A DNA stretch of 64,000 bases from a virus: positions 1 to 64,000 of IMG/VR virus record IMGVR_UViG_3300004369_000006; one strand, 5' to 3'. Under the pieces are notes generated by a model. It did not search any database, was not told the origin of the DNA, and saw only the letters and a list, made by a program, of their open reading frames with translations. Every line of letters begins with the position of its first letter. Position 1 is the stretch's first letter. The translations under genes and the position numbers were made by a program. Positions 1 through 52,156 of this stretch are shown here, piece by piece.

Positions 1-6
1 GGACAA

Positions 7-4439: not shown

Positions 4440-7400
4440 ATGGCACAACAATTAAATAAGTTTAATCTACCTGAGCCTCCTGAAAAAGATAATAATAACT
4501 GGACTGCGGAAGATTATTTGGCACAAAATAGATTATTTCGTGTCAACTTTGCTCCTGAAAATACACAGCCTAAGTTTGCTCCTACTACAGGAGAGTTATT
4601 ATATGATCCTGAAATTGTTAGAAGGCAAACAGGAAATTTAGGATTAAGCTTTGATGTAAACAATCAGCAGGAAGAACAATACTTACCTGGTTTATATCAA
4701 CCTACTAGTCAGCGTATTGCAAATTTTGTTCCTACGTTATTAGCAAATATAGTAGGTGAAGCAGCACATATTGCAAGTGCTGTTCCTGATATGGTAGACT
4801 TAGTTGCTACAGGTACGGGTTTAACTAATGAACCTATTTTTGGTTGGTACGATAACATTGAATCTTTTAAGAACAAAGTTATAGATGAGAATATTCCTAC
4901 GTATATGACCAAAGAATATGCCGAGGGAAACCTGGGTTTTTGGGAGTCTTTAGGACATGCGGAATTCTATAATAAAGAATTAGCTCCTACATTAGGTTTT
5001 CTTGTCGGAGCATATGGTACAGGTTATGCAGCTTCTGCGTTAAAATTGGGTACACGTGCAGTAAACCTAGGAGTAAACATAAATAAAACTTTAAGTAATT
5101 CAAAAAAGATTACAGACGGAACTCGTTTAGCAAACCTTACTAATAAAGCTGACTTTGCTGCACAGGTTGCTACACAGACTATGTATGAGTCTATAGCAGA
5201 AGCTAACCATGTTCGTATGGAGATGCTTGAGTACTACGAGCCTTTAATTAAAGCAGGTACGATTGACCCACAAGTTGTTAATGAACGTATAAATGCTGCT
5301 GCGGGTAGAACTTTTTTAGCTAATGCCGCTTTACTTGGATTTACCAATGCAGGTTCTACTGCTATTATAAATAAAATATTTCCTACGCTTAAGCCTGCTG
5401 CTAGGACAGCATTAGATAAAGGACCTTTTTCACGAATGTGGGATAAGGCAGGACTCCTTGTAAGTGATCCTATTCGTTTTGGAGGTAAGGCATTTACTTG
5501 GGATGTAGCAAAAGGAGTAGGAGCAGGTATATTTACAGAAGGTTTCGAAGAAGGAGCACAGTCTATATTTAGTGATACCTATAAGCAATTAGCAAAATCA
5601 GACCGCATTAGCCAAATGGGTTATAATGTGTTAAATGATATGAGTGCATTTGCTATAAACTTATCAGGTCAGCTAGGTACTAGTGAGTTTAATAAAGCAA
5701 TTATTCTTGGAGGAGTTATTGGAGGTATGGCTGGGGGTATTGGTAATGCTCGTCAGTACTTAGGTGATGTTAAAAAAGCAGAAAATATTCGCACTAACCT
5801 TCAAGACCAATGGAATAATAATGTCAATATTCTTCGTGAAGTTTCTATAACTGATGAGAATGGTCAGATTGTATTTGATGAACAAGGTAATCCACAAATA
5901 AATGTTAGTCAATTAAAAAATGCAATCTCCCGTAACATTGAAAACAGCGCAGATCTTCAAATTTTAGAAAAGCTTGTTGAGGAGGGAGAAACAGAAAAGG
6001 CACAAGGATTCTTTATGTCACGTATGATGGCTCCTATGATACATCAGTATGTAGACCATCCTCAAGGTAAAGAATTTCTAATGGCTAATCTGCGTAATGC
6101 TCTTATTCAGAATGGTAGAGAAGAAGCAGTAGAAGCATTACCTCAAGAAATTGAAGATGCTGTAGGTAAATACTATGATCATTACAAAGCAGCTTATGAA
6201 GAAATATCTCCTGAGGTTGGTAACTACTTAAGGAGCAGAGTTTCTATTATTGGTAACCAAACTAAACTAAGTAAGTTATTAAAACTTAAAAACCGTTATC
6301 GTCCAGGACTTAAACAGGATATAACTGAAGAAGAAAAAGCAGAGTTTAAAGCTCAAAAAGAAATGTTTATTAAGAATGTAAGTTATGCTGCTACTAATGC
6401 GGCTACACGTAGAAACATTCTTAAAGAAGAAATTGAAGAGTTAGATAATGTTATACAGCAGTTAGAATTTGAATTAGAAACTGCAGAAAGTAAAGAAACT
6501 AAAAACTTAGTAAAGGTTAAGATTGAGGCTCGTAAAGATTCTCGTGCAGAAAAACTACAGCATAAAGCTATTGTAGAAAGCGAGTTATCATCTTTGTTTA
6601 CTCCTGAGTTTTATAATAAAGAGTTTAGTAAGTTTTTAGATTTAGACAAAAACTTTGAGTACTTAACTCAATATGAAGCCGAGATTCAAAAGACCATAGA
6701 TGCTCTTGAAAGAGATGCTAAAGCAAATGGTTATGAGTTTGGTCCTGCTGATAGTACTGAACTATTAGAAAGTCCTAGATCTAACGATGTTAGAGATCGT
6801 TTAAAAGAATCTGTATACTTCCGTAAGGGTAATGACTTCTATACTTTAATCAAGTCACCACAAGGCATAAGTTTTATGGCTAAGGTGAATAAAGATGGCA
6901 GTATAGATAGTAATATGAAACCTGTTTATTTAGCCGTAGCAGAAGACGCAGGATACTTTGATGGCATGACTATGCTATCTAAAGAAGAAAAGGATAAAAT
7001 TATTCAAGTATATAACATTAAGTCACAAGTTACTGCACTTAGTGAAGTACTTAATGAAGAACAGAATAAAGAAAATACTAATTTAAGTGAGTTACAAAAC
7101 CAACTTAGTGAAGTAAATAGAATTTTAAACAATGTTAGAAATAAACTTTCTTATCGGAAATCAAGGGTTGCGGAACTCCAACAAAATCCAACGGAAGAAA
7201 ACCTTCAAAAGATTCAAGAATACGCTGATGACATTGCTACGTTCACTGAGAAGGTTATTGAATTAAAAGGAATTAAAGAGCAATTACAAGCAACTCTTGA
7301 TACTGCTACAGAAGTTGGAAGTCAGTACAAACAAATATTAAATGCTATTGATGGTTATGTTACTCAGTATGGTAACTTAACTACTTTAGATGTAATAGAA

Positions 7401-10220
7401 GGAATGGAAGTTCTTCCTCTTAGCCAAGGTGTTATTAATAACTTCTTTAGCTTAGACGAAGTACAATCGGTATTTGGCAAAGTAGAAAATCCTCCTGTTG
7501 ATTTTGAATCATATAATCTTTGGCAAGAGCATATTAATCAATTACGAGAAAACTTTAAGCAGACCTCTAATCAAATTAAGGAGTTAGAAAAAACCATTAA
7601 GAAAACTAAGAAAGGAATTGTAAATACCATTTTATATAATCTTACGGGTTTAAGTAAAACTGCGGATATTCCATTGTCTGCTATTGCAGAATTTATTCAA
7701 GATGATGTTCCTAATGGAGAAGCTTTAGTAGAACTTATAAATGTTTACATAGCAAATCCTTTAAATGTTGGTACAGCATTTGAAACAAACATTAATAAGG
7801 ATGCAGAATACTATGATCAGCTTATATCAGGATTAGATATTGATAATTTGTCAAGTCAGTTTTTTACTGCGTTTACAGATTCATCTACTAGTCCTGAGAT
7901 TGTTAAACAAATCGAACAGTCTTTAAATAATCTTAGTGCGTTTAATAAATCCAAAATAGAACTTGACCAAAGTATAGGTCAGATAGAAGATGCTTTTACG
8001 CGATTCTTAAATTTACAAGAACAGCTAGATAACCTACAAACTGAAATTGAATATACTAATGACTTTGTAGCAAACTTAAATAGTATTATAGCTAAGGTAA
8101 GTGATTATGTCAATCAGATAGGTACGCAGGGATATATTATAGATCGTAATACTCAAACAAATACTGAACCTGATGTAGATCAGTCTACTGATGCACTTAC
8201 CTCAGAACGTGAAGCTTTTGGTTTACGTAAGTCTAATCTTATTACTACAATTAATGGTATTACTAAGATTGTAAATGGTCGAGTACAGTATGATCAAAAT
8301 GGAATGCCTATTCTTAATGAAGAAGAAGAAACATATCCTGAGAGTATAGCAGCTAATACTTGGATTAACAATCAAGATGCTACCACGTTTGCAAAGAATT
8401 ATAAAATGCGTATTGCAAGTGCTGCGCAGTTAGAACAAATCTTTGCTAATACAGATCAGACAGTACCTGTAACAGATGATACTGCATTATATGTAGTGCC
8501 TGTAGACAATGCAGGTAATCCTGTAAGACAAGATGGCTACATTGTATATTTTGGATTACCAAATGTTAGTACTACATTCCCTAGTGAAGGACGTTCTACT
8601 TTAAATGAGGGTTATGTAATCAATGAAGTATTTGAAATAGTTGATGATGTTGTTGAGTTTAACAATACCAAGTACGATTTAAAAAGCGCAGAGGACTACG
8701 CAATTGTTTTAGCAGAGGCTAATAAGATATTACAAAATCGCTACAGCAACTATCGTACTGAGTTACAACAACGTGCTCAGGCAGGTGAAACTATCCTCTT
8801 AGAGCCTGAAGGATTAAGTAAGGGAGTTGCGGTAGTTAATCGTGTTTTAAATAAGGATACAGGTGAGATAGAAACTGTATATCGCAGTGCTAATACCTTA
8901 GACAATGTAGAAAACATTGAAATAGCATACGACTCATCTATTGAAAATCCAGTAACAGGATTTATTGAACCTGCTATTCCAGGTTCAGTAATTGCATATA
9001 TGGCAGATGGTAAAGCTGCAACACTTAATACTCGTAAGCTTAATGATGCGCAGGTAGATACTGCAATTAAATTATTAGGGTATTTAGGATACAGTGCAAA
9101 TTTGCAAATGGCTGTAGATTATAATGGACAGGCTGTGTCTATCTTACCTACTAGTAATCAAAATGGTTTAATAGATTTGTTAATGCCTTGGGGTATTAGT
9201 TTCAGTGAAGAAGGTAATATTCGTAATCAAAACATTCTGATTACAGGTAAAGGTTTAAACAATCGTAAGCTTACTTATATGCGTAATGGTAACATTACCA
9301 ATATAGATTTGCAATCTATTGTTACTGTTAATAATGATGGTAGTCTAGAAGTAAATAGAGATAATCCACAAGTACTTGAGCTTATTGAATTCTTAAAAAC
9401 TAAAAGTCATAACGTTAATGGTAAGGCATTAAATAATCCTATGTTTGCAAATTCTTTTGCAATGCCTACAGACATTAATATAAAAACGGATAAGGTTACC
9501 TTAGGTAAAGAATACAAATCCTATGAAGCTTATGTATTAGATAACACAGTTACACATTTAGTACCTGATAATTCTAATGCTCCTCAGTTTTTAAATCGGT
9601 ATGTAATCTTACCTCAGACATTACCTGCTCGTCCTAAGGCACAAGCACCTAAACAAAAAGCTCCTACAGTTACTCCACAGCAAACTCAAAATGCAGGGGC
9701 TAAAATTCAAAAGGCGGACACATCTATTTTTGATGAAAAGGCTACTATTAATCCTACTAGTGTACCAAAATCAGATAATGGAATACAAGGGTCTTTACAA
9801 GTTGTGAGTGGAGGATTACGAGTTCTTGCTAATTTTAATTTAAATTCTAGAGGTGTATTTACTACACTAGGATCTAGGACTTTTACAATAGATGAAAATG
9901 GCAAAACTATTAATGAAATAGCTCCTGAAACAAATGAAGTAGTTACCAACGAGATATTTAAAGAATTAAATACTTATACAAAAACTTTAGATCAGAATTC
10001 AACTGATTTTAATTTTAAAGATTTAGTAGATAATTTGCCAATGAAAGATAGTGATATAGCATTTGCAGTTGATTTTACTAAAGAAGAAACTACTCCCACT
10101 CCACCTGAAACTCCTCCTGTAGAACAAGAGGAAGAAACACAATGTGGCACAGGATCAGGAAAGCCTGCAAGTAAGAGTAAAAAGCAAGGAGCTAAAACCA
10201 AAAGAAAATCAGCTAAGTAA
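4440..10220 (+). CDS. Giant virion cargo protein, 1926 aa
   Basis: Giant protein directly upstream of the vRNAP gene; the two overlap in a TAATG, suggesting translational coupling. Seen: hydrophobic glycine-rich stretches around residues 184-200 and 421-437, long charged coiled-coil-like tracts around 640-710 and 830-930, a beta-rich Asn/Thr-rich second half, then a Pro/Glu linker and a strongly basic Ser/Lys tail. The single cysteine is C1902, 24 residues from the end. No catalytic motif was recognised. Giant proteins adjacent to the RNA polymerase are packaged in crAss-like virions; the glycine-rich hydrophobic parts could allow membrane passage during ejection. That last point is inference. 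Confidence 0.7.
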   Translation: MAQQLNKFNLPEPPEKDNNNWTAEDYLAQNRLFRVNFAPENTQPKFAPTTGELLYDPEIVRRQTGNLGLSFDVNNQQEEQYLPGLYQPTSQRIANFVPTLLANIVGEAAHIASAVPDMVDLVATGTGLTNEPIFGWYDNIESFKNKVIDENIPTYMTKEYAEGNLGFWESLGHAEFYNKELAPTLGFLVGAYGTGYAASALKLGTRAVNLGVNINKTLSNSKKITDGTRLANLTNKADFAAQVATQTMYESIAEANHVRMEMLEYYEPLIKAGTIDPQVVNERINAAAGRTFLANAALLGFTNAGSTAIINKIFPTLKPAARTALDKGPFSRMWDKAGLLVSDPIRFGGKAFTWDVAKGVGAGIFTEGFEEGAQSIFSDTYKQLAKSDRISQMGYNVLNDMSAFAINLSGQLGTSEFNKAIILGGVIGGMAGGIGNARQYLGDVKKAENIRTNLQDQWNNNVNILREVSITDENGQIVFDEQGNPQINVSQLKNAISRNIENSADLQILEKLVEEGETEKAQGFFMSRMMAPMIHQYVDHPQGKEFLMANLRNALIQNGREEAVEALPQEIEDAVGKYYDHYKAAYEEISPEVGNYLRSRVSIIGNQTKLSKLLKLKNRYRPGLKQDITEEEKAEFKAQKEMFIKNVSYAATNAATRRNILKEEIEELDNVIQQLEFELETAESKETKNLVKVKIEARKDSRAEKLQHKAIVESELSSLFTPEFYNKEFSKFLDLDKNFEYLTQYEAEIQKTIDALERDAKANGYEFGPADSTELLESPRSNDVRDRLKESVYFRKGNDFYTLIKSPQGISFMAKVNKDGSIDSNMKPVYLAVAEDAGYFDGMTMLSKEEKDKIIQVYNIKSQVTALSEVLNEEQNKENTNLSELQNQLSEVNRILNNVRNKLSYRKSRVAELQQNPTEENLQKIQEYADDIATFTEKVIELKGIKEQLQATLDTATEVGSQYKQILNAIDGYVTQYGNLTTLDVIEGMEVLPLSQGVINNFFSLDEVQSVFGKVENPPVDFESYNLWQEHINQLRENFKQTSNQIKELEKTIKKTKKGIVNTILYNLTGLSKTADIPLSAIAEFIQDDVPNGEALVELINVYIANPLNVGTAFETNINKDAEYYDQLISGLDIDNLSSQFFTAFTDSSTSPEIVKQIEQSLNNLSAFNKSKIELDQSIGQIEDAFTRFLNLQEQLDNLQTEIEYTNDFVANLNSIIAKVSDYVNQIGTQGYIIDRNTQTNTEPDVDQSTDALTSEREAFGLRKSNLITTINGITKIVNGRVQYDQNGMPILNEEEETYPESIAANTWINNQDATTFAKNYKMRIASAAQLEQIFANTDQTVPVTDDTALYVVPVDNAGNPVRQDGYIVYFGLPNVSTTFPSEGRSTLNEGYVINEVFEIVDDVVEFNNTKYDLKSAEDYAIVLAEANKILQNRYSNYRTELQQRAQAGETILLEPEGLSKGVAVVNRVLNKDTGEIETVYRSANTLDNVENIEIAYDSSIENPVTGFIEPAIPGSVIAYMADGKAATLNTRKLNDAQVDTAIKLLGYLGYSANLQMAVDYNGQAVSILPTSNQNGLIDLLMPWGISFSEEGNIRNQNILITGKGLNNRKLTYMRNGNITNIDLQSIVTVNNDGSLEVNRDNPQVLELIEFLKTKSHNVNGKALNNPMFANSFAMPTDINIKTDKVTLGKEYKSYEAYVLDNTVTHLVPDNSNAPQFLNRYVILPQTLPARPKAQAPKQKAPTVTPQQTQNAGAKIQKADTSIFDEKATINPTSVPKSDNGIQGSLQVVSGGLRVLANFNLNSRGVFTTLGSRTFTIDENGKTINEIAPETNEVVTNEIFKELNTYTKTLDQNSTDFNFKDLVDNLPMKDSDIAFAVDFTKEETTPTPPETPPVEQEEETQCGTGSGKPASKSKKQGAKTKRKSAK

Positions 10221-13200
10221 TGAAGACTTGTGATGTAATTACATTCAGAAACTCCAAAGGAGAAATAGTTACTGCACCTAATACTATTTCTGATGATTTA
10301 GTACGGTTGTATAACTATAGCAAAGAGGCTGCTAATAAGATTGTTGAAGACTTAGTAAACATTAACTCTACAGGTCAATACAGTTTTGGTTCTTGGATTA
10401 ATAGTAGAACAATTGAAGAAGCTACTATAAATTATTATACAGATGGAAATGGGTTGCCTACTGCACAAGCTGTAGTAGCTTACATTAAACATCTAAAAAA
10501 TCAAACCGCAACATTAAAAGATCAAATAATCTTTCCTGATGGTACAGTAAATAAAATTTTATCTCTTGAGGTACTACAGGCTTATGCGCCTATTTTCTTT
10601 GCAGAAGTACAATCTAATGGAATTACATTTAACCATATTCTAAACGGAGAAGTAATCCCTGACGAGATTTACAAAACAGCATTTGATAGTTTGCTAGAAG
10701 ACTTAGATATCTACAAAGAAACTGCTCAACTAAATAATGAGGTAGGTAAAGCTAAAGAGTTAGACTTCTTAATTAAAAACATTCAACAAAACCCTTATTA
10801 TTTTCAATCAGCATTTAATAAATTCTTATCCAATTTTGATATAAAGGCTACAGAGTCTTTTAAAGAAGTTGTAGATACTATTGAAAATCAAAGTGAAGAA
10901 ATAGTTGATGAGCAAAAAGATGTTTTAGAAGGTGATGAAGAGTTAACGGATTTAGAAAACGAAGAAAACGAAACTGTTGTTTCTAGAGATAGTACTTTCT
11001 ACGATTCTAAAATGAAAGTAAACTATAAGGTACAAGCTCCTAAAGCTATACGTTTAATGTTTACTACCATGATGGATGTGGAAGTAGAACTTAAAGATCC
11101 TGATAGTAAGAAAACTCAATTTTCTAGGGACGACTTTGAAGTATATGCTTTACAGGATGGAATGTCTGGGCTAACTAAAGTTGCTCAGGCAAATAAACTT
11201 ATGTCCTTAGTGCATAATGTATTGGCGGATGTTCCTGGAAATATAGATGCCCATATTGCTGCTCTTAAGAAACAAGCAGATATCTTTTATACTTCTGCAG
11301 ATACGGCTTTGTTAGGAGCACAGTTAGATAATATTATCAAACGTATTGATACCTATACTAAAGGTTCAAAACTTAAAAATGAAATACAAGCTCTTAAAAA
11401 GAATCCTCCTAAGTCTTTAAATGATATATCGGATATCTTTTATAGAGAGTTACTACGTACACAATGGGTACAACAGTTTACTAAAACCAATAACCGTTAT
11501 TACAGTACCTTATATAATGAAACTAAGCAATTAAATCGCTACAACTTAAATAACCAAGCAATACAAACTCGTATTATTTCAGAGTGGCAAGCAAAGCTTA
11601 GTGATAATATTGTTAAGGCTGGTGGTATTACAGAGTTTAGAAAAGAACTTAATGCTTTAATTAAAAAAAGAGCTACGTTAAAAGCTGTTGATATAAACAA
11701 ACAAATCCTAGAAAAGCTAGGTATTGTAATTCCTAACATTGAAAGCTATTTAAAAATTGATATAGACGGTTTACCTACAAAAGGTAATAATAATGCGCTT
11801 AGTGTTTTTACAAGTAGCATAACTAGATTTGGTTTAGGTAGTGATTTAGCAATAAAAAATCTTTACAACTTTCGTCAGCAAAGTAATATACGTACCAATG
11901 CACGTAAGTTTGCGTTACTTATAGCACAGTATTCTACTAAAGACATTGACCTTGTTAGTTATAACATGGATGGTGAAAGAGTATATTCTATTGGATTACA
12001 CAACAGTATGACTCTTACTGCTACTAAGTATAACCAACGTTTATCAGGCGTTAATCGGCTTACTACTGCTACACGCAATGCGCAAATTAAAGCATTGGAA
12101 GATGATATTAATGTAGATATGTCTTTGCAAGCTAAAGCTCCTGCATTATGGACTAGCCTAATCATGGAAAAGCCATTACAGCTGGTAATTAATATTGAGA
12201 ATGGATTAGGTAAAGAACGTAGTGCGGATAAATTGTCTACACGTAAGCTTAATCCTATTGATCGTCTTATCTTAGATATGAAAACGGTTGCAAATAATGC
12301 TAGTCCATTATTGCAAGCAGGTGACCGTCCTGTATACATGAGTGTTTCTGTTGTAAATAAGTTAGACATTCCTGAATCATTAGGAACTAATAATCAAAAC
12401 CTACAGATATCCAGGATTAAAAATTCTATAAAGTACGAGCTATTACAGTCTAAGAAATACTTTGATGAAAATATAGGACGTGGATTAAAGAATGTAGATC
12501 ATTCTGATTTTAGAATGTTTAAGGGCTTAGCCGCTAAGTTAGGTATGACAATGGAAGAAATTGTTAATTTACCCTTAGCAGATGCTCCTACAGTTTATAC
12601 TCAACAAGCTTCAGTATTTAATGAATCTAAATACGAAAGTAAGGTTGATGAGTTTATTGATGAATTAGTTATTCGTAACCTAGAAGGGATTAGAGAAACA
12701 TTAGTTAGTTTTAAAATTAACATAGAAAAATCCCCTTTATTTAAGTTTGTAGAAAACGCATATCAAACTGATAAAGCTAACGGATTTAAAAGTTTTGTAC
12801 TTGCTCAATTAGCAAACTACTCAGAACAGGTTCGAATATTTACAGGAGATGCTACCTTGTTTAAAGATGCAGCAGACTTTGCAAAGCGTTACATGACTTT
12901 GAATTCTACTAAAAAGATTCAAAGGATAGATGATTCTATAAATGCTCTTATAGAGCTTACACAGCTTATGCCAAGTTTTGAGAATAAAGACAAAGGCAAT
13001 AATGCATCTTGGAGAGCCTATGCTCAAAAAATAATTACAGAAGGTCGTACACCTACCATTACTATTAAAGAGCCTACTACAACCATGGAGAAAGCTAATT
13101 TTGATTCTATGGTAGGTTATACTGCAGATTTATATAGAGCTCAAGGAATTAAAAATCCTGAGCAAGAAGCTCGTAAGAAGTTAGCTGCTTATGCTGAAGA

Positions 13201-16200
13201 GTATGAATATGCAGATGGTATAGGAATGATTACGTTAGATGCCTATAGAAGGTTAGCCTTACGTACAGAAACTTGGTCTAAGTATCATGAAAATATTTAC
13301 CAAGCGGTACTTAATAATCGTCCTATTGCTAAAAGTGATTTGCAGTCTGCACGATTTACTCCATTGAAACTACAGTATTCAGGTCCTTATATGACTGAAG
13401 CTCATAAAGGCGGAGGGTTTGTAGCAGTACGTAAATATGCTGTAATGCCTTTGATTCCAGGTATTGTAAAAGAAGGCACACCAATGGATTCTCTTATGCA
13501 ATCTATGCATCGCAATAAGATTGAACAAGCTATTCTTGAGAGTGGAGCTAAAGTAACTTATGGTAAAACATATAGCATAGAAAACTTTGAAGAAGAGTTT
13601 ACTCAAGCAATAAATGAAGATATGTATTCAGCTACGGATGATTTACATGATGCTTACATGGGTATTCAAACTAACCTTAATGAACAACCTAAAGGTAGTG
13701 TTACTCAATCAAAGCAGATGCGTAGACACACCTTGTTGAATATTAAAGACCGTGGTAAGTTTTTATCTGAAAATTCTGAGTTTCAAAATTTATTTGATAG
13801 CTATGATAAAAAACATGCGGACTTAGTAAATGAAAAATTTACTGATTTTATTGATGATATTGGATTTGAAAATATTGACAGTATAGCTTCTTGGCAAAAG
13901 GCAGACTTGACTCGATTTATTAATCAAGCTGTATATGCAGCAGAGAAACGTAACTTTCCTAACTCAACAATCCAAACTATTAATCAACTCAAAGAAATAG
14001 ATGAAGAGTTAAAAGAACGTGAGATTACCTTCTTGGATGAGCTTCCTATTTTTCATGAGTTGGAATATCTAGTTACAAAAATCTTTAAGGATAATGTAGT
14101 TAGTTTAAAACGTAATGGGGAATCTTTTATGCAGGTTCCTGACTTAGGTAACTCTATTGATTCTAGCCGTAGTTTACAGTTTTATCGTGTAACAGATGCA
14201 AAGACTATACTACCTATGGAGATTACTATGCCATTGCCTGATGAATTATTTGATTATGTAGCAAATAAATATGGTAATGGTAAGTTTACTCAGGAAGCTT
14301 TAGATAAGTTTAATGAGGATGTCCGTAAAGATGAAGATGCCTTTGTAGCTAATAAAGGTAAAAAGATGACTACGCTTACTAAGATACGTAGAGTAGTTGG
14401 ATTCCGTATTCCTCACCAAGCAAAATCATTTACTGAAACTGCACATGTAGTAGAGTATACAAATCCTATTTTATTTAATTCAGTTACTGTACCCCATGAG
14501 TTAGTAATTAAGAATAACTCTGACTTTGATAGTGATAAGTTTAATGCATATACTACTGAGTTTTCTGTACAGGATGGTAAAATTGTTTTACCTGAAGATT
14601 CAGTAATGAATGACCTACTTGATATTGAGTATAAGATTAATTTGCTCTATGATACTTTTGCTGAGCACATTATTCCTGCTAACGATAGTCTACTTGCAGA
14701 TACAGCAACTAAGATTGCTACGGATTTAAAAGGTATAGACTTGGTTAAACAACCTATGGAAAACCTTTTAAACATTGCAAAACAAATTGAAACATTTACA
14801 AAGTACAAGGAAGGTAAAGGTAACGTAGGTATTAATGTATCTAACGTAAGTTTACTTCCTGTTATCCAAAATAATAATTTTATTCACGTAGATAAAAAAG
14901 GATTTTTATCTTATGTACTTGATGATACTGGTGGAGTAAACTATTATGATTTTAGTAATATTACTACTCAAGAGGGTTACTTAAAATCTCAATTACTCGA
15001 TGAGTTTACTACTGCTTCACTAGATGCAGCAAACACCACAGGTTATCCATTCTTTATTAACTTATATGGACAAGGGTTAAGTGCTGCATTAGCAGGAGTA
15101 CATTTAGGATCTTTTAATAAAACGTTGTTGTGGCTTAACCAACCGATTATTACAGAATATTTACGTCAGTATTCATTCCATAATAGAGGTATAAGTAGTG
15201 CCAAAACAAGTAAGCAAATTATTCAAGCGCGTCTTTTAAAAGGCTATATGACTCTTGAACAATATAAGAATCTTACTCCTGATAGCTCTGTTAAAATTAC
15301 TATTAAGGATTTACAGATGGCTATTAAGAACCCAAATACAGATAAAGCTAAATACATTCAAGCAGTAGCTCTTAAAGTATTTGATGCGCTTAATGGTTTG
15401 AATAGTGAAATCTACGATATCAAGAAAGAAACTTCTGCAGATGATACAGGATACAAGACATTTCAAGAGTTACAAGCAAAAGAAAGTGAATTAAATCCAA
15501 CAGGAATAGGTTTAATACCTAAGGATTTAAAATTTATACAAGCATTAAAAAGTTCTATAAAAGGATTGCAGGATAAATTACGGTTTACCACAATGTCTAC
15601 TAATATAGGAATTGATTATGCTAGTCTTGAAGAAGCATTATTAAAAAAAGATTTTAATTTAAAGTTTAACGCAAAGAATCGTAATAAACTATTTAATGCT
15701 TTTCGTTCTCAGTTTACTCCTATTGCTATATCCTCATCGTTTTTGCCAGGCACTGGTTTTGATTATGTAAGAGAAGTAGAACGTTTGACTACAGGAGAAA
15801 ATAGTGTAGCACGTAGATTATATGAAATTCAAAATGATCCTGATAATGCTTATGCACGTGATTTATTCTTGAGTCAATTCCAACCTTTGATTGATTACCA
15901 AGGGTCAGGACGTGATATTGTGGTATCTAGGATGTCTGATAGTAATGTAGTAGATCAGAATATAATTGATGCTAAGCATGATGAGTTAATGCAATCTGAA
16001 TACGGAGATTTAGCAAGAGATTTAATTCGACTATCTTTGGTACAGTCTGGATTCTTACAAGGGAAATTTAATTTGATGCGTAATCTTAACAAGCAGTTGG
16101 TGTATCAGGAGTTACTACCTTATATTTCTCAGGTTAAAGAGATTATATTATCTGATAATCCTGTTTTGAAATCAAATATTCAAGAAGGTTATATGCCTGC

Positions 16201-16534
16201 ATTTATGTATGCTTATGTACATAACATGCCTATTTCAAGTCAAACTGTAGAAATATATGATCCTTATATGAAAGATATGACTATACTACCTGGTACTACT
16301 AAAAAAGTATTTACAACTTATTCTTTAGGTAAGGAAGATGCTAGGAAAAGACTAGAAGAAGGAAGTGTATATTTTTCTACAAATTCGGATGTGTTTATAA
16401 AAGAAATAGTTATGAAGGCCAAAGAATTTATGATTCCAGTTTCCAAAACCAAAGGTAAGGCTGAAGCTCCATTTGAACGAGATAACGCTCCTGATTTATT
16501 AGAAGCAGGTAAAAAACGTAAAAACGATTGTTAA
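10220..16534 (+). CDS. Predicted virion RNA polymerase (crAss-like, DxDxD)
   Basis: A 2104 aa protein carrying the two-barrel signature of the crAss-like virion RNA polymerase, a relative of eukaryotic RNA-dependent RNA polymerases and of multisubunit RNAP. The metal-binding motif DFDSDKF places D1435, D1437 and D1439. Upstream, KYAVMPLIPG (from residue 1072) and ESGAKV (E1107-K1111) match the other double-psi barrel region with its conserved lysine. The length is close to that of phage phi14:2 gp66, the characterised member. Such enzymes enter the host with the DNA and transcribe early genes. The start ATG overlaps the stop of the previous gene (TAATG). The only cysteines are C4 and the last residue, C2104. 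Fold and motif assignment are by eye. Confidence 0.88.
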   Translation: MKTCDVITFRNSKGEIVTAPNTISDDLVRLYNYSKEAANKIVEDLVNINSTGQYSFGSWINSRTIEEATINYYTDGNGLPTAQAVVAYIKHLKNQTATLKDQIIFPDGTVNKILSLEVLQAYAPIFFAEVQSNGITFNHILNGEVIPDEIYKTAFDSLLEDLDIYKETAQLNNEVGKAKELDFLIKNIQQNPYYFQSAFNKFLSNFDIKATESFKEVVDTIENQSEEIVDEQKDVLEGDEELTDLENEENETVVSRDSTFYDSKMKVNYKVQAPKAIRLMFTTMMDVEVELKDPDSKKTQFSRDDFEVYALQDGMSGLTKVAQANKLMSLVHNVLADVPGNIDAHIAALKKQADIFYTSADTALLGAQLDNIIKRIDTYTKGSKLKNEIQALKKNPPKSLNDISDIFYRELLRTQWVQQFTKTNNRYYSTLYNETKQLNRYNLNNQAIQTRIISEWQAKLSDNIVKAGGITEFRKELNALIKKRATLKAVDINKQILEKLGIVIPNIESYLKIDIDGLPTKGNNNALSVFTSSITRFGLGSDLAIKNLYNFRQQSNIRTNARKFALLIAQYSTKDIDLVSYNMDGERVYSIGLHNSMTLTATKYNQRLSGVNRLTTATRNAQIKALEDDINVDMSLQAKAPALWTSLIMEKPLQLVINIENGLGKERSADKLSTRKLNPIDRLILDMKTVANNASPLLQAGDRPVYMSVSVVNKLDIPESLGTNNQNLQISRIKNSIKYELLQSKKYFDENIGRGLKNVDHSDFRMFKGLAAKLGMTMEEIVNLPLADAPTVYTQQASVFNESKYESKVDEFIDELVIRNLEGIRETLVSFKINIEKSPLFKFVENAYQTDKANGFKSFVLAQLANYSEQVRIFTGDATLFKDAADFAKRYMTLNSTKKIQRIDDSINALIELTQLMPSFENKDKGNNASWRAYAQKIITEGRTPTITIKEPTTTMEKANFDSMVGYTADLYRAQGIKNPEQEARKKLAAYAEEYEYADGIGMITLDAYRRLALRTETWSKYHENIYQAVLNNRPIAKSDLQSARFTPLKLQYSGPYMTEAHKGGGFVAVRKYAVMPLIPGIVKEGTPMDSLMQSMHRNKIEQAILESGAKVTYGKTYSIENFEEEFTQAINEDMYSATDDLHDAYMGIQTNLNEQPKGSVTQSKQMRRHTLLNIKDRGKFLSENSEFQNLFDSYDKKHADLVNEKFTDFIDDIGFENIDSIASWQKADLTRFINQAVYAAEKRNFPNSTIQTINQLKEIDEELKEREITFLDELPIFHELEYLVTKIFKDNVVSLKRNGESFMQVPDLGNSIDSSRSLQFYRVTDAKTILPMEITMPLPDELFDYVANKYGNGKFTQEALDKFNEDVRKDEDAFVANKGKKMTTLTKIRRVVGFRIPHQAKSFTETAHVVEYTNPILFNSVTVPHELVIKNNSDFDSDKFNAYTTEFSVQDGKIVLPEDSVMNDLLDIEYKINLLYDTFAEHIIPANDSLLADTATKIATDLKGIDLVKQPMENLLNIAKQIETFTKYKEGKGNVGINVSNVSLLPVIQNNNFIHVDKKGFLSYVLDDTGGVNYYDFSNITTQEGYLKSQLLDEFTTASLDAANTTGYPFFINLYGQGLSAALAGVHLGSFNKTLLWLNQPIITEYLRQYSFHNRGISSAKTSKQIIQARLLKGYMTLEQYKNLTPDSSVKITIKDLQMAIKNPNTDKAKYIQAVALKVFDALNGLNSEIYDIKKETSADDTGYKTFQELQAKESELNPTGIGLIPKDLKFIQALKSSIKGLQDKLRFTTMSTNIGIDYASLEEALLKKDFNLKFNAKNRNKLFNAFRSQFTPIAISSSFLPGTGFDYVREVERLTTGENSVARRLYEIQNDPDNAYARDLFLSQFQPLIDYQGSGRDIVVSRMSDSNVVDQNIIDAKHDELMQSEYGDLARDLIRLSLVQSGFLQGKFNLMRNLNKQLVYQELLPYISQVKEIILSDNPVLKSNIQEGYMPAFMYAYVHNMPISSQTVEIYDPYMKDMTILPGTTKKVFTTYSLGKEDARKRLEEGSVYFSTNSDVFIKEIVMKAKEFMIPVSKTKGKAEAPFERDNAPDLLEAGKKRKNDC

Positions 16535-16535: not shown

Positions 16536-17615
16536 ATGGGTGCAAAGTGTCCTAACATAAACTCTAACGAGTGGCAAGCATTAGTAGAACGTGTAGGTGA
16601 GGACTACGCATGGGGTATTTATACTCTCTATGATGATATTCCTTTAATTGTAGAAGATTTAGATGCAGAGTTAGTCAAACTAGGTTTACGTAATCAACAA
16701 GGTGAAGATTTACTTAAGACAAAAGATTTAAGTGAGAAGCTAAATAAGAAATATTTGAATCTAACGTTTGTTGCAGAAAAGGTAGGTAATAGATTTAGTC
16801 ATACGGTTACAGAGGATTACATTCCTTCTAAAGAAGAGATAGAAGCTATAGTTGAATCTATTAATACAGGTACTCCTAATATGTCTGAAGAGCTTATGAT
16901 GGAGGAAAGTATTCTAGATTCTGATATGGAAACTGAAGAACCTGTATTGGATAGCAACATATTTGATCCTAATACCAAAGAGATTAATACGTATTTAGAT
17001 CAGTTAGAAACTACCAATACTACATTGCCTTTTAACTCTAACATGAGTGCTGCATATAAGTCTTATGAAACAAATGTAGGTAGCATTGTAGATGCTCGTA
17101 ATGCTTTAGCACAAGTTCTAAGCCCTGAAACAAAGACACACATAGACGAAAACGTTGCTGACTTAGTAGGACAAGTATTTTATACAGCAGTTCCTGAAAG
17201 AGCTTTAAATAGCTTTATAGATAACTATAACTTACGTGCTAGTTTTGTAAATGAACGCAATGAGCCATTAGGTCATTCTGAATTGGTAACTGAATTTTTA
17301 AAATATATTCCTACTACACAGGTATCTGCAATTATAAAACGTCAATTAGATTTACTAAACAGTGTAAGTGAATATCTTAATGAGGTATCTAATACACAAC
17401 CTATTATTCAAGATACCTTAGCTACTATACAAGAGTACAAACAGTCAGTTCCTATTGTAGAGGAAACACTTCCTGTTAAAGATACGCAAGAGGTAGAAGA
17501 TTTAGAAACAGATAATAATATCATTAATAGTGAAGCTTTCCAAAGATTTAACGAAGAAAATCAATTTACTACCTTAGAGGAGAATTTAGATTATTACAAA
17601 CGCTGTAAATTATAA
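16536..17615 (+). CDS. Cargo-cassette protein, 359 aa, with N-terminal CPNxNSxEW module
   Basis: The gene begins one base after the vRNAP stop and ends 3 nt before the next start. The N-terminus (MGAKCPNINSNEWQALVERV) resembles a short module I associate with large crAss-like virion proteins (from memory, not searched). The rest is acidic and helical, with Glu/Asp/Thr-rich spacer segments near residues 115-150 and 310-335. Only two cysteines are present: C5 and C357, the third residue from the end. The protein is much smaller than its neighbours and could be a connector or accessory subunit of the injected polymerase complex. That role is inferred from position only. Confidence 0.65.
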   Translation: MGAKCPNINSNEWQALVERVGEDYAWGIYTLYDDIPLIVEDLDAELVKLGLRNQQGEDLLKTKDLSEKLNKKYLNLTFVAEKVGNRFSHTVTEDYIPSKEEIEAIVESINTGTPNMSEELMMEESILDSDMETEEPVLDSNIFDPNTKEINTYLDQLETTNTTLPFNSNMSAAYKSYETNVGSIVDARNALAQVLSPETKTHIDENVADLVGQVFYTAVPERALNSFIDNYNLRASFVNERNEPLGHSELVTEFLKYIPTTQVSAIIKRQLDLLNSVSEYLNEVSNTQPIIQDTLATIQEYKQSVPIVEETLPVKDTQEVEDLETDNNIINSEAFQRFNEENQFTTLEENLDYYKRCKL

Positions 17616-17618: not shown

Positions 17619-20600
17619 ATGCGAAGCAATTATTGTGCAGTTATACCTGCTGATATAAAAGCAGAGTACGGAGAAGTAATAGGGCAAAGAATTATGTCTT
17701 ATTACCCTGATCGTATTCCAACGTTAGATGAAGTACGTTTTATAGGAGATGCTCTAAAGCGTGGTGTACGTGGTGCTAAACTACAAGCATATACTAAATT
17801 TCTAGATCAAGCTACTATAGAAGCAGAGATTGATAAAAGAAACGCTGAGGTACTTGAAGAAAAGATTATAGATGAGAATCGTGGAGAATTATACCAATTA
17901 AAGAATGGTAAAGTTCTTTTATATCGTCCTTCTCAAATTGCTAAGGAAACTATACGGGGTAAAAGATCTCGTAAGTCTTTACAAGGTTTGGAAGCATCTG
18001 CTAATAACCAAACATTAGCAACCATAGGTACAGAGTTGCATGAGCTTAATGAAAACTTTTACGTATACTTTGCGCAACAATCCCCTTTGCTACGGGTAAA
18101 GAGTAGAATTACTGCTCCTAAAATTACTCGTCCTGATTACTTATCTCCTGAAGCATACGAAGAAATCAAAAGTAGTATTAAGATACTTGTAGATAAAGCG
18201 ATTGCTAAACAGCAAACTATCAATGATCGTACAGGTAAAGAAGGTCAAGCTATTGTATATCCTGAAGTATTTATTCATAACGATAAAGACACAGGAGGTA
18301 CTATAGATGGTCTTGTAGTATATAGTAATAGTCGTATAGATTTCTTGGACTACAAGTTCATGAAGCAACAAAAGGAAATCATTACTACTGAAACAGGTAT
18401 AACAGAGTTTGTACCTTCTACTGAGATATCTGATATCAAACGTAGAACTTATCGTTTACAGACAGGGCAATACCGTGATATGCTTATTGATAGTTACGGT
18501 GTACAGAAAGAACAGTTTGATGAGATATCTATTATTCCTTTTATGATGGATATCCCTATTGATCCTGTATATAATGAAGACGGGACTTTAGTATCAAGTA
18601 GAAAACCTGGTGAATACAAGAACCCTAAGTTTCAGAAGAAAGTAAATGCTGTTATAGGTATCTCTTCAGAACAAGTAAAACAATTACCTACAGGATATCA
18701 ATTAACGGATAATGAAATCCTTGATGATATTATTGTTGAACTTGATAAGAAACTTAATATAGCTATTGAGAATGCTCGTAAGAGTTACTATTCAGATAGT
18801 GATTTAAAGTATGCTGAATATCAAGATGAGATTAGTAAACTAGAACGGCTTATAGAACATATCCAAAGAGAGAAAGATGCAAACTCTGTATTGGATTATG
18901 TACTTAATATGACGGACTATATCAATAAGAATAGCAATGCTATTACTCCTAATGACCTTACCTATTATCTTAGTGAGGTAGAGTATTTTAAAAACCTTCT
19001 TGAAACGGTTACTAAAATTACCAATAAAGAAGAAGACGAAACTATTGCTAATGAGCAATTACCTGAAGATAGCCACTTTAGAAAAGCTTTGAAAACCAAT
19101 GCTTTTAAAACAGGTTTATCTCTGCAATTATTAAATCAGGCAGAAGAAATCTTAAGGGGTAAGTTAGAGCTTAACTTAGAAAAATTAAACCCTGACATTG
19201 CTGAGGTTACATCTTATAACTTTGGTGAAAAGTTTATTCCTTGGAGTGAAATAGAAGAGCCTGTAATTCAAACTGCATATACTTTATTTAATGAAGCTGA
19301 AACTAAGAAGTATAAAGCTATTAAAGAACTGCAGGAAGAAATTAAAAAAGAAATAGATGCTCTAAAAGCCGCAGGTTACACTATGGAGCAGGCTAATAAG
19401 ATGATCTTTAATGACAAAACAGGTAATATTATTAGCAGATATGATTCAGAAAAGCGTAATCTTATATTTCAAGCAAGAGAAAATAACGATGTAGCATACA
19501 TTAAATCAATTTATGAACTGACTGATGAAGGTAAGAATCGTTATTTATTAGATTTAGAAACACGTAAAAATCGTTTAGCTGCGATACATGGAGAGTTTTC
19601 TGCGGCATATAACAAAGCGGTAAGTAAGTTTATTGATGAGAACGACTTAGCCAACTCTGAAAATGCTTGGTTAATTCGTGCAGCGGTAAATAAATATGCT
19701 AAGCTTAAGAGTGAAGAAGAGAACTACAGTGAGGAATATAAAAAATTACCACCTGCTGTAAAGAAGTATGTAGACTTCTATTATGCCACGATGCAGAAGT
19801 TTAATGCAGCTTTACCTAATGAGTATATCAGGGAAAACTTTGTGCCTAATCTTAGAGCACAATCTGCTGGTATTCTAAGACAATTATTAGGGGTAAGTGC
19901 CCCTAAAGATTTATTTAATCTTATCAAGCGTAACACGGTAGATGGATTGCGTTTACGTCAGTCTGAGATTACCTCTCTTACCATGGACATCAATAGTCCT
20001 GACTTGCGTGTACCCTTAGCATATAAAGATAACTTTGAGTACTACGATAAAGAAACTCATGAATATCGTGCATCATATACTCGTGAAGAAAACAACTTTG
20101 CTAAGAGTAAAGATTTGATGTATAACCTTATTATGTTTGGAGAAGCAGTGTATCACAAATCCTATATGGATGAAACTTTAGATACTATGCAAGCTCTTAT
20201 GCAGTATGCTAAATATAAGAAGTCTTATAAGCAAGATATTATTGGGGGTATCAAAGGATTAAACCGTGGTTATAGAACTCCTGAATTAGAGCAGTCTGAT
20301 CGTATTTCTAAAAATCTTACGCAGCTTATTCGTACTCATGTTCTACGTGAACACATTACAAGTAAAGATGTAATTATTGGCAAGAATATTTCAGCTAATA
20401 AAATGGTAAGTGCCTTAATTAATTCAGCTCGAAACATGGCTTTAGGATTTAACTATAAAGCTGCTTTTGCTGGGTTTATGACAGGACAAGCTAACCTATT
20501 AGCTTACAGTAGAAAGAATAGGCAGATTACTCGTAAGGGTCTTATGTCTGCATATAAACATATGCGCTCTGCTAATGCTCGTGCTATGAATGAGTACTTT

Positions 20601-21761
20601 GCAATTGAGAAAGAAAACCATACTCAACGTATAGCAAGGGAATCAAGTAAAAGTATTATAAATAGAATCTTTAATCGCGATACACTATATGTTTTTTATC
20701 GTGCTGAAGAAGTAACTAGTAACCTGGTACTAGGAGCTATGGCTCGTAACTATGGCGTAGATCCTTTAGATGGTAAAGTACGTAGGCTTGCTGAGATAGA
20801 TGGTGATGTTAAGAGTATCCATGATATGTGGAAAGAAGCTACAGATTCAGGTAAGACTATTGAAGACCTTCCTCTGACTGATGAGCAGTTTGCAGAATTT
20901 AGAACTATGGTTCGTACTACTTCACGTAGAATTAAGGGTACGAATATGAATGCTGATCAATCTGTATATTCAGGAAATATTTTAAATAAAGTATTTGGAA
21001 TGTTTAGGACGTGGCTTACTCCTATGCTTATGAATATCTATGGGGGTATCCGTTACAATAAAGGAATGGATGACTTTGAGGTAGGTTCTGCTCGTGTAGC
21101 ATTGCAAGAGTTAAAGGCTATGTATGACCTAGGATTACGTAAAGGAGCTGCGGGTCTTATGCGTATGGCAGCATCTAGTATTCCTTTCTTTGGTAGTCGT
21201 TTTAGTAAGATGTCAGGACTAAAGTATGAGCTTAGTAAAAAAGCTTCTTTAGAATCTTATGAGAAGTTTATAGCTCTTAATCCTATTTATGCTAATAAGC
21301 TAACGTTAGATGAATGGCATCAGCTTCGTCAAGATACTATGAATATGCATCATAGTTATGTACGTATGCTGGCTACTATACCTTTATTACTTGCAGTGTT
21401 AGGAGGTGACTTTGATGATGATGGAGAACGTGATAGTAAAAGTATTGGCGTTTTAAACTTAGCCCACCAATTGGTTTCTCGTTTTCAAACAGAAATGTTA
21501 TTCTTCTATGACTATTCTGCAATGCGTGAGATTACACAATCTCCTATACCTATTTTAGGATTCCTAAATCTCTATAAGAATGTAACAGTAAACTCTTTTG
21601 ATGAAGCACGAGATTATATTGCAGGAGAAAACAAATTAACTAAGACAGGTAAGTCTGCAGATAAAGCTGAACAATGGCATTATAGTAAAAGATTTGTTCC
21701 TTTTATCTATCAGTATGGTAATTTAATTGAAACTTTAAATTTAGATACAGAAGACGAATAA
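17619..21761 (+). CDS. Giant cargo protein with RecB/Cas4-type PD-(D/E)XK nuclease domain, 1380 aa
   Basis: Last gene of the cargo cassette. Residues 130-290 show the ordered motifs of RecB/Cas4-type PD-(D/E)XK nucleases: GTELH (G137, H141), an aspartate in TIDGL (D230), D244-Y-K246, then a QxxxY motif (LQTGQY) about 30 residues later. Cas4-type Fe-S cysteines are absent; the only cysteine is C6. Beyond the nuclease come long helical regions (about 390-700) and a C-terminal half containing a hydrophobic segment near 1251 (IPLLLAVLGG) followed by an acidic DFDDDGERD stretch. Likely packaged and injected with the vRNAP. Substrate unknown: host DNA degradation or genome-end processing are both possible. 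Confidence 0.72.
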   Translation: MRSNYCAVIPADIKAEYGEVIGQRIMSYYPDRIPTLDEVRFIGDALKRGVRGAKLQAYTKFLDQATIEAEIDKRNAEVLEEKIIDENRGELYQLKNGKVLLYRPSQIAKETIRGKRSRKSLQGLEASANNQTLATIGTELHELNENFYVYFAQQSPLLRVKSRITAPKITRPDYLSPEAYEEIKSSIKILVDKAIAKQQTINDRTGKEGQAIVYPEVFIHNDKDTGGTIDGLVVYSNSRIDFLDYKFMKQQKEIITTETGITEFVPSTEISDIKRRTYRLQTGQYRDMLIDSYGVQKEQFDEISIIPFMMDIPIDPVYNEDGTLVSSRKPGEYKNPKFQKKVNAVIGISSEQVKQLPTGYQLTDNEILDDIIVELDKKLNIAIENARKSYYSDSDLKYAEYQDEISKLERLIEHIQREKDANSVLDYVLNMTDYINKNSNAITPNDLTYYLSEVEYFKNLLETVTKITNKEEDETIANEQLPEDSHFRKALKTNAFKTGLSLQLLNQAEEILRGKLELNLEKLNPDIAEVTSYNFGEKFIPWSEIEEPVIQTAYTLFNEAETKKYKAIKELQEEIKKEIDALKAAGYTMEQANKMIFNDKTGNIISRYDSEKRNLIFQARENNDVAYIKSIYELTDEGKNRYLLDLETRKNRLAAIHGEFSAAYNKAVSKFIDENDLANSENAWLIRAAVNKYAKLKSEEENYSEEYKKLPPAVKKYVDFYYATMQKFNAALPNEYIRENFVPNLRAQSAGILRQLLGVSAPKDLFNLIKRNTVDGLRLRQSEITSLTMDINSPDLRVPLAYKDNFEYYDKETHEYRASYTREENNFAKSKDLMYNLIMFGEAVYHKSYMDETLDTMQALMQYAKYKKSYKQDIIGGIKGLNRGYRTPELEQSDRISKNLTQLIRTHVLREHITSKDVIIGKNISANKMVSALINSARNMALGFNYKAAFAGFMTGQANLLAYSRKNRQITRKGLMSAYKHMRSANARAMNEYFAIEKENHTQRIARESSKSIINRIFNRDTLYVFYRAEEVTSNLVLGAMARNYGVDPLDGKVRRLAEIDGDVKSIHDMWKEATDSGKTIEDLPLTDEQFAEFRTMVRTTSRRIKGTNMNADQSVYSGNILNKVFGMFRTWLTPMLMNIYGGIRYNKGMDDFEVGSARVALQELKAMYDLGLRKGAAGLMRMAASSIPFFGSRFSKMSGLKYELSKKASLESYEKFIALNPIYANKLTLDEWHQLRQDTMNMHHSYVRMLATIPLLLAVLGGDFDDDGERDSKSIGVLNLAHQLVSRFQTEMLFFYDYSAMREITQSPIPILGFLNLYKNVTVNSFDEARDYIAGENKLTKTGKSADKAEQWHYSKRFVPFIYQYGNLIETLNLDTEDE

Positions 21762-25917: not shown

Positions 25918-26764
25918 ATTCTTGTTTTGATATTAATTGTGATTCATAAAGTCCATCTATGCCTTCGATATCCATTGCTTGGTATAGCTCAATATTACTA
26001 GGTAATTTCATATTGAGTTTTTCTTCCCAAGCTTCTATTAGAATGTCAGACTTAGAAGTTATGCTACTAATAAAAATGTAATCTCGTTTAGGAAGACTAT
26101 TCTTTAGATAACTCATATAGGTTACAGGTAGTAAACTGTATTGACTACGCATAATTGTATTGTAAGATTCAAACCAATAAGGCTTTGCAATCTTGCTTAG
26201 TACAATATAATTATCGTTACCATATGGAGTAGTAAAGACATAATTTTCTTCTAAACATTGAGATTCTACTAGATCTTTAAGTAGTTTAAATTGCTTATCA
26301 TTTCGTATTTGCTTGTTATAATGCAATAAGAAATGCACAGCATAACGATATTTCTCTTGTTCTAGTTCAGGATAATATGCAAAAACACCAAGGAATAAAG
26401 GACTTTCCATAATGTTAAATGCAATCTTACCTGCCGTAGCTGCAAGAAATACCTTAGAAGGATTCTCAATAAAACTATGTAGGGTAATCTTCTTCATTGA
26501 TTTGCTAAGATCAAACGTAGATATCTTAGCAATCTTAAATGGCAAAGACATTTTAATATTTATATCATCAGCAATAATAATATCTCCTACATTAATTACG
26601 TGATCTCCTATATAGAAAGTACCGCAGTAAGATTCCGTTACATTAATCTCTCCTTCGGCTTTTTCTTTAGTTAGGATAGTGCATTCATATCCACTTACAT
26701 GTACTTTGGTATTAGCATTTCTAATATCAATTACCTGTGGCTGGGTTGATGGTTGTATACTCAT
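25880..26764 (-). CDS. Hypothetical protein in replication block, 294 aa
   Basis: Not recognised. Start placed at the ATG at 26764 (MSIQPS); a TTG two codons upstream is also in frame. The N-terminal ~80 residues look beta-rich (KVHVSGYECTIL, TFYIGDHVINVGDIIIADD), and the C-terminal half is helical with a YFISSIT-like hydrophobic strand. It overlaps both neighbours (UDG and the RecB-like nuclease), implying translational coupling and a role tied to DNA replication or repair. No catalytic motif was found. Confidence 0.65.
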   Translation of the reverse strand: MSIQPSTQPQVIDIRNANTKVHVSGYECTILTKEKAEGEINVTESYCGTFYIGDHVINVGDIIIADDINIKMSLPFKIAKISTFDLSKSMKKITLHSFIENPSKVFLAATAGKIAFNIMESPLFLGVFAYYPELEQEKYRYAVHFLLHYNKQIRNDKQFKLLKDLVESQCLEENYVFTTPYGNDNYIVLSKIAKPYWFESYNTIMRSQYSLLPVTYMSYLKNSLPKRDYIFISSITSKSDILIEAWEEKLNMKLPSNIELYQAMDIEGIDGLYESQLISKQEYERVKNLAGYMV

Positions 26765-47058: not shown

Positions 47059-47065
47059 TATAAAA

Positions 47066-47103: not shown

Positions 47104-47106
47104 TAA

Positions 47107-47430: not shown

Positions 47431-47505
47431 AACTGATAAAATTTAAAATAACGCACCAACTTATCCGCGTGATGCTTAACGTAGCCCGAGGTAGTTCCCC
47501 AGTGC

Positions 47506-49235: not shown

Positions 49236-49251
49236 TTTAATTTAGCGCAAT

Positions 49252-49803
49252 ATGAAATTATTTGAGTTTAGGAATCACAGTTTGCATATTTCAGAGATGG
49301 CATATGCGTTAGATCCGTTTAGAAAGATTTGGACTAGGGACAAGACCCGCAATAAACAAGTTGCTCAGAGTGAGTTATCGTATATTTATTTTATGTATGA
49401 CTTCCGTAGTGACTTTGTTGAGCAGTATGGTACAGAAGCAGAAAGAAATGAAGCAGTCTTGGAAACCTTAGGAGCACTAAAACCTACGTGGAAACCTGAC
49501 AAAGTAGTTAAAGAAGCTATTGATTTTTATTTAAACCATAGCGAGAATATAAAAATGAAAATGGTCAAGGATGTAATACAGTCTTTGCATAAGCTTAGAA
49601 AGTATTTTCAGACTATTGACTTTACGTTATTGGATGACAATGGTAAGCCTGTGTATGACATTACCAAGTACAGTAATGTAATTAAAGATTTAGAAAAGAA
49701 TATGTCTACCTTGGATAAGATGAAAGCTTTGGCATTAAAAGATGCGAAGGAAGCAGAAGCACGAGGTAGTATTGAAAAGAATGTATTTGAAGATGGATTC
49801 TGA
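49252..49803 (+). CDS. Hypothetical protein upstream of terminase, 183 aa (TerS candidate)
   Basis: A helical, charged protein directly upstream of TerL, the position of small terminase subunits in many phages. I see no TerS motif; the N-terminus is not a clear HTH, and the C-terminus is coiled-coil-like (KDLEKNMSTLDKMKALALKD). TerL overlaps its end by 11 nt. The packaging role is inferred from position. Confidence 0.55.
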   Translation: MKLFEFRNHSLHISEMAYALDPFRKIWTRDKTRNKQVAQSELSYIYFMYDFRSDFVEQYGTEAERNEAVLETLGALKPTWKPDKVVKEAIDFYLNHSENIKMKMVKDVIQSLHKLRKYFQTIDFTLLDDNGKPVYDITKYSNVIKDLEKNMSTLDKMKALALKDAKEAEARGSIEKNVFEDGF

Positions 49804-52153: not shown

Positions 52154-52156
52154 GAA

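Follow-up and report, generated by a model that had tools for sequence, protein, structure and literature searches.

Phages of the crAss-like group are thought to carry a giant RNA polymerase (RNAP) in their particles and to inject it together with the DNA to read the early genes. According to a review, a virion RNAP (vRNAP) of phi14:2 is active in vitro and has a role in rifampicin-resistant early transcription (PMC10136315). In crAss001, RNAP-associated proteins were found in virions, probably in the capsid cargo zone, and must cross constrictions of <50 Å in a partly unfolded state (PMC10172136). The 64,000-nt stretch analysed here (the window) belongs to an 83-kb IMG/VR record and contains an open reading frame (ORF) of 2104 amino acids (aa), on which residues are numbered below. 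This ORF is very probably the catalytic chain of a crAss-like vRNAP, with both double-psi beta-barrels in one polypeptide. Homology, predicted fold, active-site conservation and gene order were established for it, and it is a new, very divergent member of an already known enzyme family. A sequence-only reading had described it as a single 2104-aa ORF with DFDSDKF (D1435/D1437/D1439) and K1111, akin to phi14:2 gp66, and all of its coordinates agree with the translation: DFDSDKF begins at residue 1435, KYAVMPLIPG at 1072 and ESGAKV at 1107, the Lys inside the latter being K1111.

The proposed kinship with gp66 was borne out by sequence comparison. A profile of 67 relatives, from which the window and phi14:2 were excluded, matched the ORF at E 3.6e-130 over residues 844-1455 and 1462-1986. 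Its target set (n=692, E <=10) consisted of 180 window frames, 500 protein shuffles, the reversed sequence and 11 phi14:2 and cr108_1 proteins; no match was obtained in the other 179 frames, the 500 shuffles or the reversed sequence, and the same profile matched g066 (E 2e-217) and the two cr108_1 pieces (3e-152 and 2e-110). By blastp, the protein matched gp66 at E 1.7e-12 over residues 983-1483 and the two cr108_1 RNAP pieces at E 1.4e-21 and 2.6e-11. Profile and blastp together establish sequence homology to the phi14:2 gp66 family across the catalytic core. Further, a tblastn search of 50,697 phage records (E <=1e-5) returned four records, namely phi14:2 and cr108_1, each twice: cr108_1 at E 1e-15 (residues 999-1999, in two pieces) and phi14:2 at E 9e-7 (residues 999-1483), the latter on a gene annotated 'Catalytic RNA polymerase subunit'.

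The Pfam, PHROG and NCBIfam libraries gave no family match for the chain, and phmmer against PDB sequences found no credible relative (sole match E 0.13, a phosphoribosyltransferase), so searches with a single sequence make the kinship look weaker than it is. The cellular beta' model PF00623 had no match in the record and matched 14 of 14 control genomes. These library and PF00623 results agree with the published description of crAss-like RNAPs as extremely divergent (PMC7886860). PF00940, the model of T7-like single-subunit RNAPs, matched neither the record nor any control genome. Viral contig searches with the window RNAP alone, and with its 1380-aa neighbour, confirmed no relative. Among the 150 candidates from one scan of contigs of bacterial and archaeal genomes, one was confirmed, with a short stretch of 57 residues matching on a contig of a Bacteroidetes metagenome-assembled genome. 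A cellular multisubunit RNAP was considered as an identity for the ORF and rejected, given the silence of PF00623 in the record and the presence of both barrels in one chain.

A three-row alignment led to 267 IMG/VR relatives, and the best 80 of 267 were kept; L-numbers denote fetched loci, and L071, one of the 80, is phi14:2 itself. G-x-D[FY]DxDK lies in the matched ORF of 78 of the 80 relatives and in the next ORF for L033 and L037. The core alignment held 75 loci and the window (76 rows); L028, L029 and L050 (cut short) and L033 and L037 (split, motif-free rows) were omitted, and dropping near-identical rows left 69, gp66 included. Relatives were retrieved by patterns covering about residues 998-1006 and 1393-1400 and motif-free rows were excluded, so conservation at these places is biased by selection.

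All 69 rows agree at thirteen columns: K1072, K1111, Q1166, G1300, R1396, P1398, Q1400, D1435, D1437, D1439, K1440, D1602 and P1642. The window protein thus retains every invariant Asp and Lys, its DxDxD loop aligns with that of gp66, and K1111 aligns with gp66 K1065.

An AlphaFold2 model of residues 905-2104, built from the 69-row alignment with no templates, had a pTM of 0.80 and a mean pLDDT of 76, mostly >80 through the core. Foldseek placed 6VR4 (phi14:2 gp66) at the top with E 5.9e-29; the next match had E 0.041, and rows from there down were not counted as evidence on their own. VIA-align likewise ranked 6VR4 first (Z 22.3, 905 residues aligned, 3.6 Å), followed by the two-barrel RNAi polymerases RDR2 and QDE-1 (Z 11-14), the P32 and P74 phage RNAPs (gp64, gp62) and P23-45 gp96 (Z 8.9-9.5), the AR9 and PhiKZ beta'-type subunits (Z 7.6-8.0 over model residues 391-582, where the second barrel and its Asp triad lie) and cellular largest subunits (Z about 7), where by the tool's own note Z <8 may reflect common arrangement only. 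The first barrel was also modelled alone (residues 990-1188, 67 rows, gp66 excluded). This model had a pTM of 0.75, and 6VR4 was again the top match (E 5.6e-6; Z 14.2 with 183 residues aligned, 6.3 Å); weak later matches were RDR2 (Z 4.2-4.8) and the p97/CDC48 N domain (Z 2.8-3.7 over ~73 residues), which we take to contain a double-psi barrel. The 69-row profile also matched 6VR4 in the PDB (E 3e-261), but with gp66 among its rows this was not counted in favour of the window.

Model strands and fold matches thus predict two double-psi beta-barrels in one polypeptide. The sequence-only reading had proposed a two-barrel active site and a structure prediction against gp66 as its check: among solved structures, 6VR4 matches the predicted core best, and the contrary outcome that it had named, a structure lacking the two barrels, did not appear in the models. 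The first barrel would carry the conserved K1072 and K1111 and the second the magnesium-binding triad D1435/D1437/D1439, with a bridge helix and then the trigger loop presumably coming after the second barrel. 6VR4 was the only solved crAss-like structure returned by our searches, and the window protein adds a deeply divergent, apparently intact example.

The genes around the ORF (Table 1) resemble those of phi14:2. The RNAP ORF overlaps the upstream 1926-aa gene by one base, as g066 and g067 do in phi14:2, and the gene order g067-g066-g065 is preserved; all three phi14:2 genes carry a mass-spectrometry note in the record. The 1380-aa protein matched the cr108_1 1714-aa chain at E 3.7e-42 and g065 at E 1.5e-5 by blastp. 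In L026 its counterpart is joined to the end of the RNAP core (E 9.5e-38), and in L052 a g065 counterpart is fused behind the RNAP (E 1.5e-80), which supports joint function of the RNAP with proteins of this type. The 'single chain' of the sequence-only reading holds for the two barrels but should not be extended to the holoenzyme, which probably includes the neighbouring large proteins. All 156 terminase matches in phage records were <60% identical, the top-ranked being cr111_1 (43%), and the nearest terminases are those of Crassvirales phages. With counterparts of g067, g065 and the cr108_1 1714-aa chain as neighbours and such a terminase, the ORF sits in a transcription block of the usual crAss-like kind, within a Crassvirales genome. 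As separate observations, the 1380-aa protein itself carries a GGDFDDDGE motif close to its C-terminus (residue 1264), and its N-terminal stretch resembles a PD-(D/E)XK nuclease by eye, with no Pfam match.

Table 1. Features of the window, with positions in the 64,000-nt stretch
Feature	Position	Strand	Description and basis
1926-aa protein	4440..10220	+	Counterpart of phi14:2 virion protein g067; blastp E 1.1e-22 over 76-693
RNAP ORF	10220..16534	+	2104 aa, ATG start; very probable catalytic chain of virion RNA polymerase; homology and fold
First double-psi beta-barrel (DPBB-B), predicted	13364..13705	+	Residues ~1049-1162; strands in both models, fold matches, invariance
K1072	13433-13435	+	Invariant Lys of first barrel
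K1111	13550-13552	+	Invariant Lys of first barrel
Second double-psi beta-barrel (DPBB-A), predicted	14108..14587	+	Residues ~1297-1456; model strands; AR9/PhiKZ beta' matches
Catalytic triad loop DFDSD	14522..14536	+	D1435/D1437/D1439 aligned with gp66 D1361/D1363/D1365
Trigger loop start, D1602-N1605	15023..15034	+	Asn (15032-15034) at gp66 Lys-1615 position
359-aa protein	16536..17615	+	First 62 residues match cr108_1 1714-aa chain residues 1-77, E 1.6e-8
1380-aa protein	17619..21761	+	Counterpart of phi14:2 RNA polymerase associated protein g065
Terminase large subunit and portal	49742..54523	+	phrog_6681 E 3e-108, phrog_6547 E 3e-128
Major capsid protein	55859..57373	+	phrog_11589 E 4e-115

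Compared with phi14:2 gp66, the window protein shares the two barrels in one chain, a similar size (2104 versus 2180 aa), the aligned DFDxDK and Lys, and the same neighbours. However, identity in the aligned core is only ~23%, the window has NSDFDSD where gp66 has GSDFDID and Asn where gp66 has Lys-1615, and the single g065 of phi14:2 corresponds to two ORFs (359 and 1380 aa) in the window. By tree distance from the window, the phi14:2 RNAP ranks only 61st of 73. Similarly, crAss001, cr111_1 and cr128_1 (Steigviridae) have a separate RNAP chain of ~2280-2430 aa with an 'RNA-polymerase subunit' gene after it, but they keep the trigger-loop Lys; crAss001 and cr128_1 rank 69 and 70 of 73, so the layout in common with the window does not imply close RNAP ancestry. 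Among the five Steigviridae compared, the four with an uninterrupted gene (phi14:2, crAss001, cr111_1 and cr128_1) all have a separate RNAP chain of 2180-2431 aa; a separate chain also occurs in some environmental relatives. In the fifth, cr108_1, an intron divides the gene, and the motif-side half closes a 2967-aa ORF. The intron belongs to group I (RF00028, 80 bits, E 8e-19; L002:15325-15643) and lies within the DxDxD codons; the window gene is uninterrupted.

A homologous catalytic core is also found in cr1_1, cr4_1, cr50_1, jaberico and most of the environmental relatives fetched. In these three Suoliviridae and one Intestiviridae, however, it lies within ORFs of ~4100-4800 aa, and in 55 of the 63 fetched relatives with an intact ORF start the motif lies at least 1,862 residues past that start. 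The N-terminal extension of the giant relatives showed no homology to g067 by phmmer, and a fused g067, judged from its position, is only a guess. The single-chain two-barrel fold is further shared with QDE-1 and RDR2 (Z 11-14) and with P23-45 gp96/gp64 (Z about 9), to which neither phmmer nor the 69-row profile found a sequence match; QDE-1 and RDR2 have the trigger-loop Lys where the window has Asn (PMC8713982).

The position of the window within the family is poorly resolved, the five nearest nodes of the 74-row tree having support of 0.86, 0.40, 0.46, 0.00 and 0.23, and no subfamily is therefore claimed from the RNAP. Two variants outside the motif filter, cr111_1 (GSDLDVDK) and jaberico (GSDFDIDS), are absent from this tree, and cr108_1 was placed only in an upstream-half tree because its gene is split by the intron.

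By homology with phi14:2 and crAss001, the only two phages with mass-spectrometry data among the sources consulted, we infer virion packaging and host-independent early transcription for the window RNAP. The enzyme would be packed in the capsid together with its large neighbours (1926 aa; 359 and 1380 aa), squeezed through the tail partly unfolded and refolded in the host. It would then transcribe the early, replication-side genes (minus strand, 23-47.4 kb), after which the host enzyme would take over the late genes.

Several points weigh against the reading as a virion RNAP. In crAss001, the RNAP-block genes gp49 and gp50 are expressed at the middle stage (PMC8375218). Residues 1-840 of the window protein are without any detected match, and gp66 was one of the 69 rows behind the 905-2104 model. 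The window differs at 6 of 29 near-invariant columns (>=95% agreement among the other rows), having R1169, F1404, T1414, N1433, V1540 and L1601; the median in the set is 0, and six is the maximum, reached jointly with L024. Its terminal branch is the second longest of 74 in the RNAP tree, and it is without the trigger-loop Lys.

The first of these points bears on timing. An RNAP of this family might work chiefly within the infection cycle that produces it, transcribing middle or late genes, rather than as an injected early polymerase; late-gene use in the same cycle was raised for crAss001, where gp49 and gp50 are transcribed at the middle stage (PMC8375218). We consider this unlikely for the window, where the RNAP and structural genes share a strand; in addition, the phi14:2 counterpart is noted as a virion protein and early transcription of phi14:2 is rifampicin-resistant (PMC10136315). 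A Bacteroidetes-type promoter may also face the late strand. The sequence TTTG-N21-TACATTTG, which we take to be the Bacteroidetes promoter consensus, occurs perfectly at 47587-47619 (+), in the divergent intergenic region and facing the late genes, although such matches are no commoner than in shuffles: 5 in the window against a shuffle mean of 3.16 (20 of 100 shuffles reach 5), 2 in the remainder of the record (reached by 40/200) and 3 in 41.5 kb of phi14:2 (reached by 61/100). An injected early polymerase stays the preferred reading. As to gene names in crAss001, two papers take gp49 to be the catalytic subunit or homologous to the solved gp66 (PMC8375218, PMC10172136). GSDFDVDK of crAss001 (L085:10549) falls within the gene annotated Gp50 (L085:6109-13347), and Gp49 is without DxDxD.

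The divergence of the window protein bears on catalysis. A protein that kept the polymerase fold, lost its activity and now serves in structure or ejection could account for the long branch, the changed near-invariant columns and the replaced trigger-loop Lys, but it is very improbable: the three aspartates, K1072, K1111, K1440, R1396 and D1602 are all kept, neither the family RNAP profile nor PF00623 found another RNAP gene in the 83-kb record, and the trigger-loop Lys is missing in other relatives too. N1433 stands where all 80 relatives have Gly; cellular enzymes have Asn at that position, in NADFDGD. Taking the six departures, the long branch and the missing Lys together, we regard catalytic activity of the window RNAP, judged from its residues, as likely but not certain. 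A bare DxDxD occurs at 7 places (two overlapping) in the 86 predicted genes (26,812 residues) of the record and is weak evidence on its own, yet the idea that the motif arose by chance or binds metal in some unrelated giant structural protein, which the empty Pfam, PHROG and NCBIfam searches might seem to favour, is contradicted by the 67-relative profile and the 6VR4 fold matches and is scarcely credible.

The missing trigger-loop Lys is the only point of wider interest here. Lys-1615 of phi14:2, Lys-923 of RDR2 and Lys-1119 of QDE-1 occupy the position of the invariant His of multisubunit RNAPs, which contacts the incoming nucleotide (PMC8713982). In gp66 (VDNAKDP) this Lys lies three residues past the invariant Asp, and the window has LDAANTT at the same place; the alignment is ungapped from that Asp to the Lys position, so N1605 is the counterpart of Lys-1615. 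Lys is present in 65 of the 76 core-alignment rows. The other 11 have Asn (the window, L024, L027 and L044), Ser (L012, L020), Ala (L061, L066), Arg (L010), Thr (L026) or Gly (L042), and besides the window the Lys is missing in 10 of 73 tree sequences. On the 74-row tree these 11 rows require at least 8 changes, against a mean of 10.5 and a minimum of 8 with shuffled labels; this is only a rough count, since the deep nodes are weak. All six named phages in the tree (phi14:2, crAss001, cr128_1, cr1_1, cr4_1 and cr50_1) keep the Lys, and it is present by pattern in cr111_1. A limited literature search, covering its sources in part, met no mention of trigger-loop Lys variation, which cannot on this basis be called unreported.

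These observations suggest, tentatively, that a scattered subset of crAss-like vRNAPs, the window included, may work without the basic trigger-loop residue thought to position the incoming nucleotide. With Asn in its place, substrate closure in the window enzyme would have to depend on the remaining contacts. If these enzymes do work in this way, repeated natural loss would mean that single-chain two-barrel polymerases can dispense with the residue or make up for it, and the non-Lys proteins would be natural material for testing the trigger-loop contribution; a direct test in gp66 is also opened. Overall, the window protein separates features that are fixed in the family (the Asp triad, the K1072/K1111-type lysines, K1440, R1396, D1602 and P1642) from features that are free to change (the Gly before the triad and the trigger-loop Lys).

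An early promoter was sought as elements shared upstream of minus-strand genes. The upstream regions of the first two (46754-47106 and 47431-47658, both on the minus strand) share GCTACGTTAA followed by ATWAGTTGGTG, and the shared element, GCTACGTTAA...AGTTGGTG, lies at 46888-46951 and 47446-47484 (-). Its local alignment score was reached by 22 of 1000 shuffled pairs and the pattern was absent from the 86 loci examined, so it is left as a lead, a weak candidate for an early promoter. In addition, CTACGTTAA (<=1 mismatch) has 37 matches in the window against a shuffle mean of 18.87, with 0 of 100 shuffles reaching 37; most of the matches are inside genes, on both strands.

The ends of the record share an exact 99-bp direct repeat (window 1-99, L084:19189-19287), so that it probably represents a whole genome of 83,188 bp with a circular map, smaller than most crAss-like records listed. 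On this presumed circular map, a gene for a 614-aa protein with an endolysin/LysM-like C-terminus (L084:17180-19024; phrog_380, E 1.6e-8) lies shortly upstream of the transcription block. The replication block contains a PDDEXK-like nuclease (window 26727-27818, -; DUF3799, E 2e-6), a known crAss-like trait (PMC7886860). A spore photoproduct lyase family protein is encoded at window 39997-40875 (-; PF20903, E 1e-27), in a phage. Finally, L087, a 7,896-bp contig from another IMG/VR record, is 98.5% identical to window 49122-57015 over 7,894 bases; judging by this identity, a very close relative of the window phage has been assembled elsewhere.

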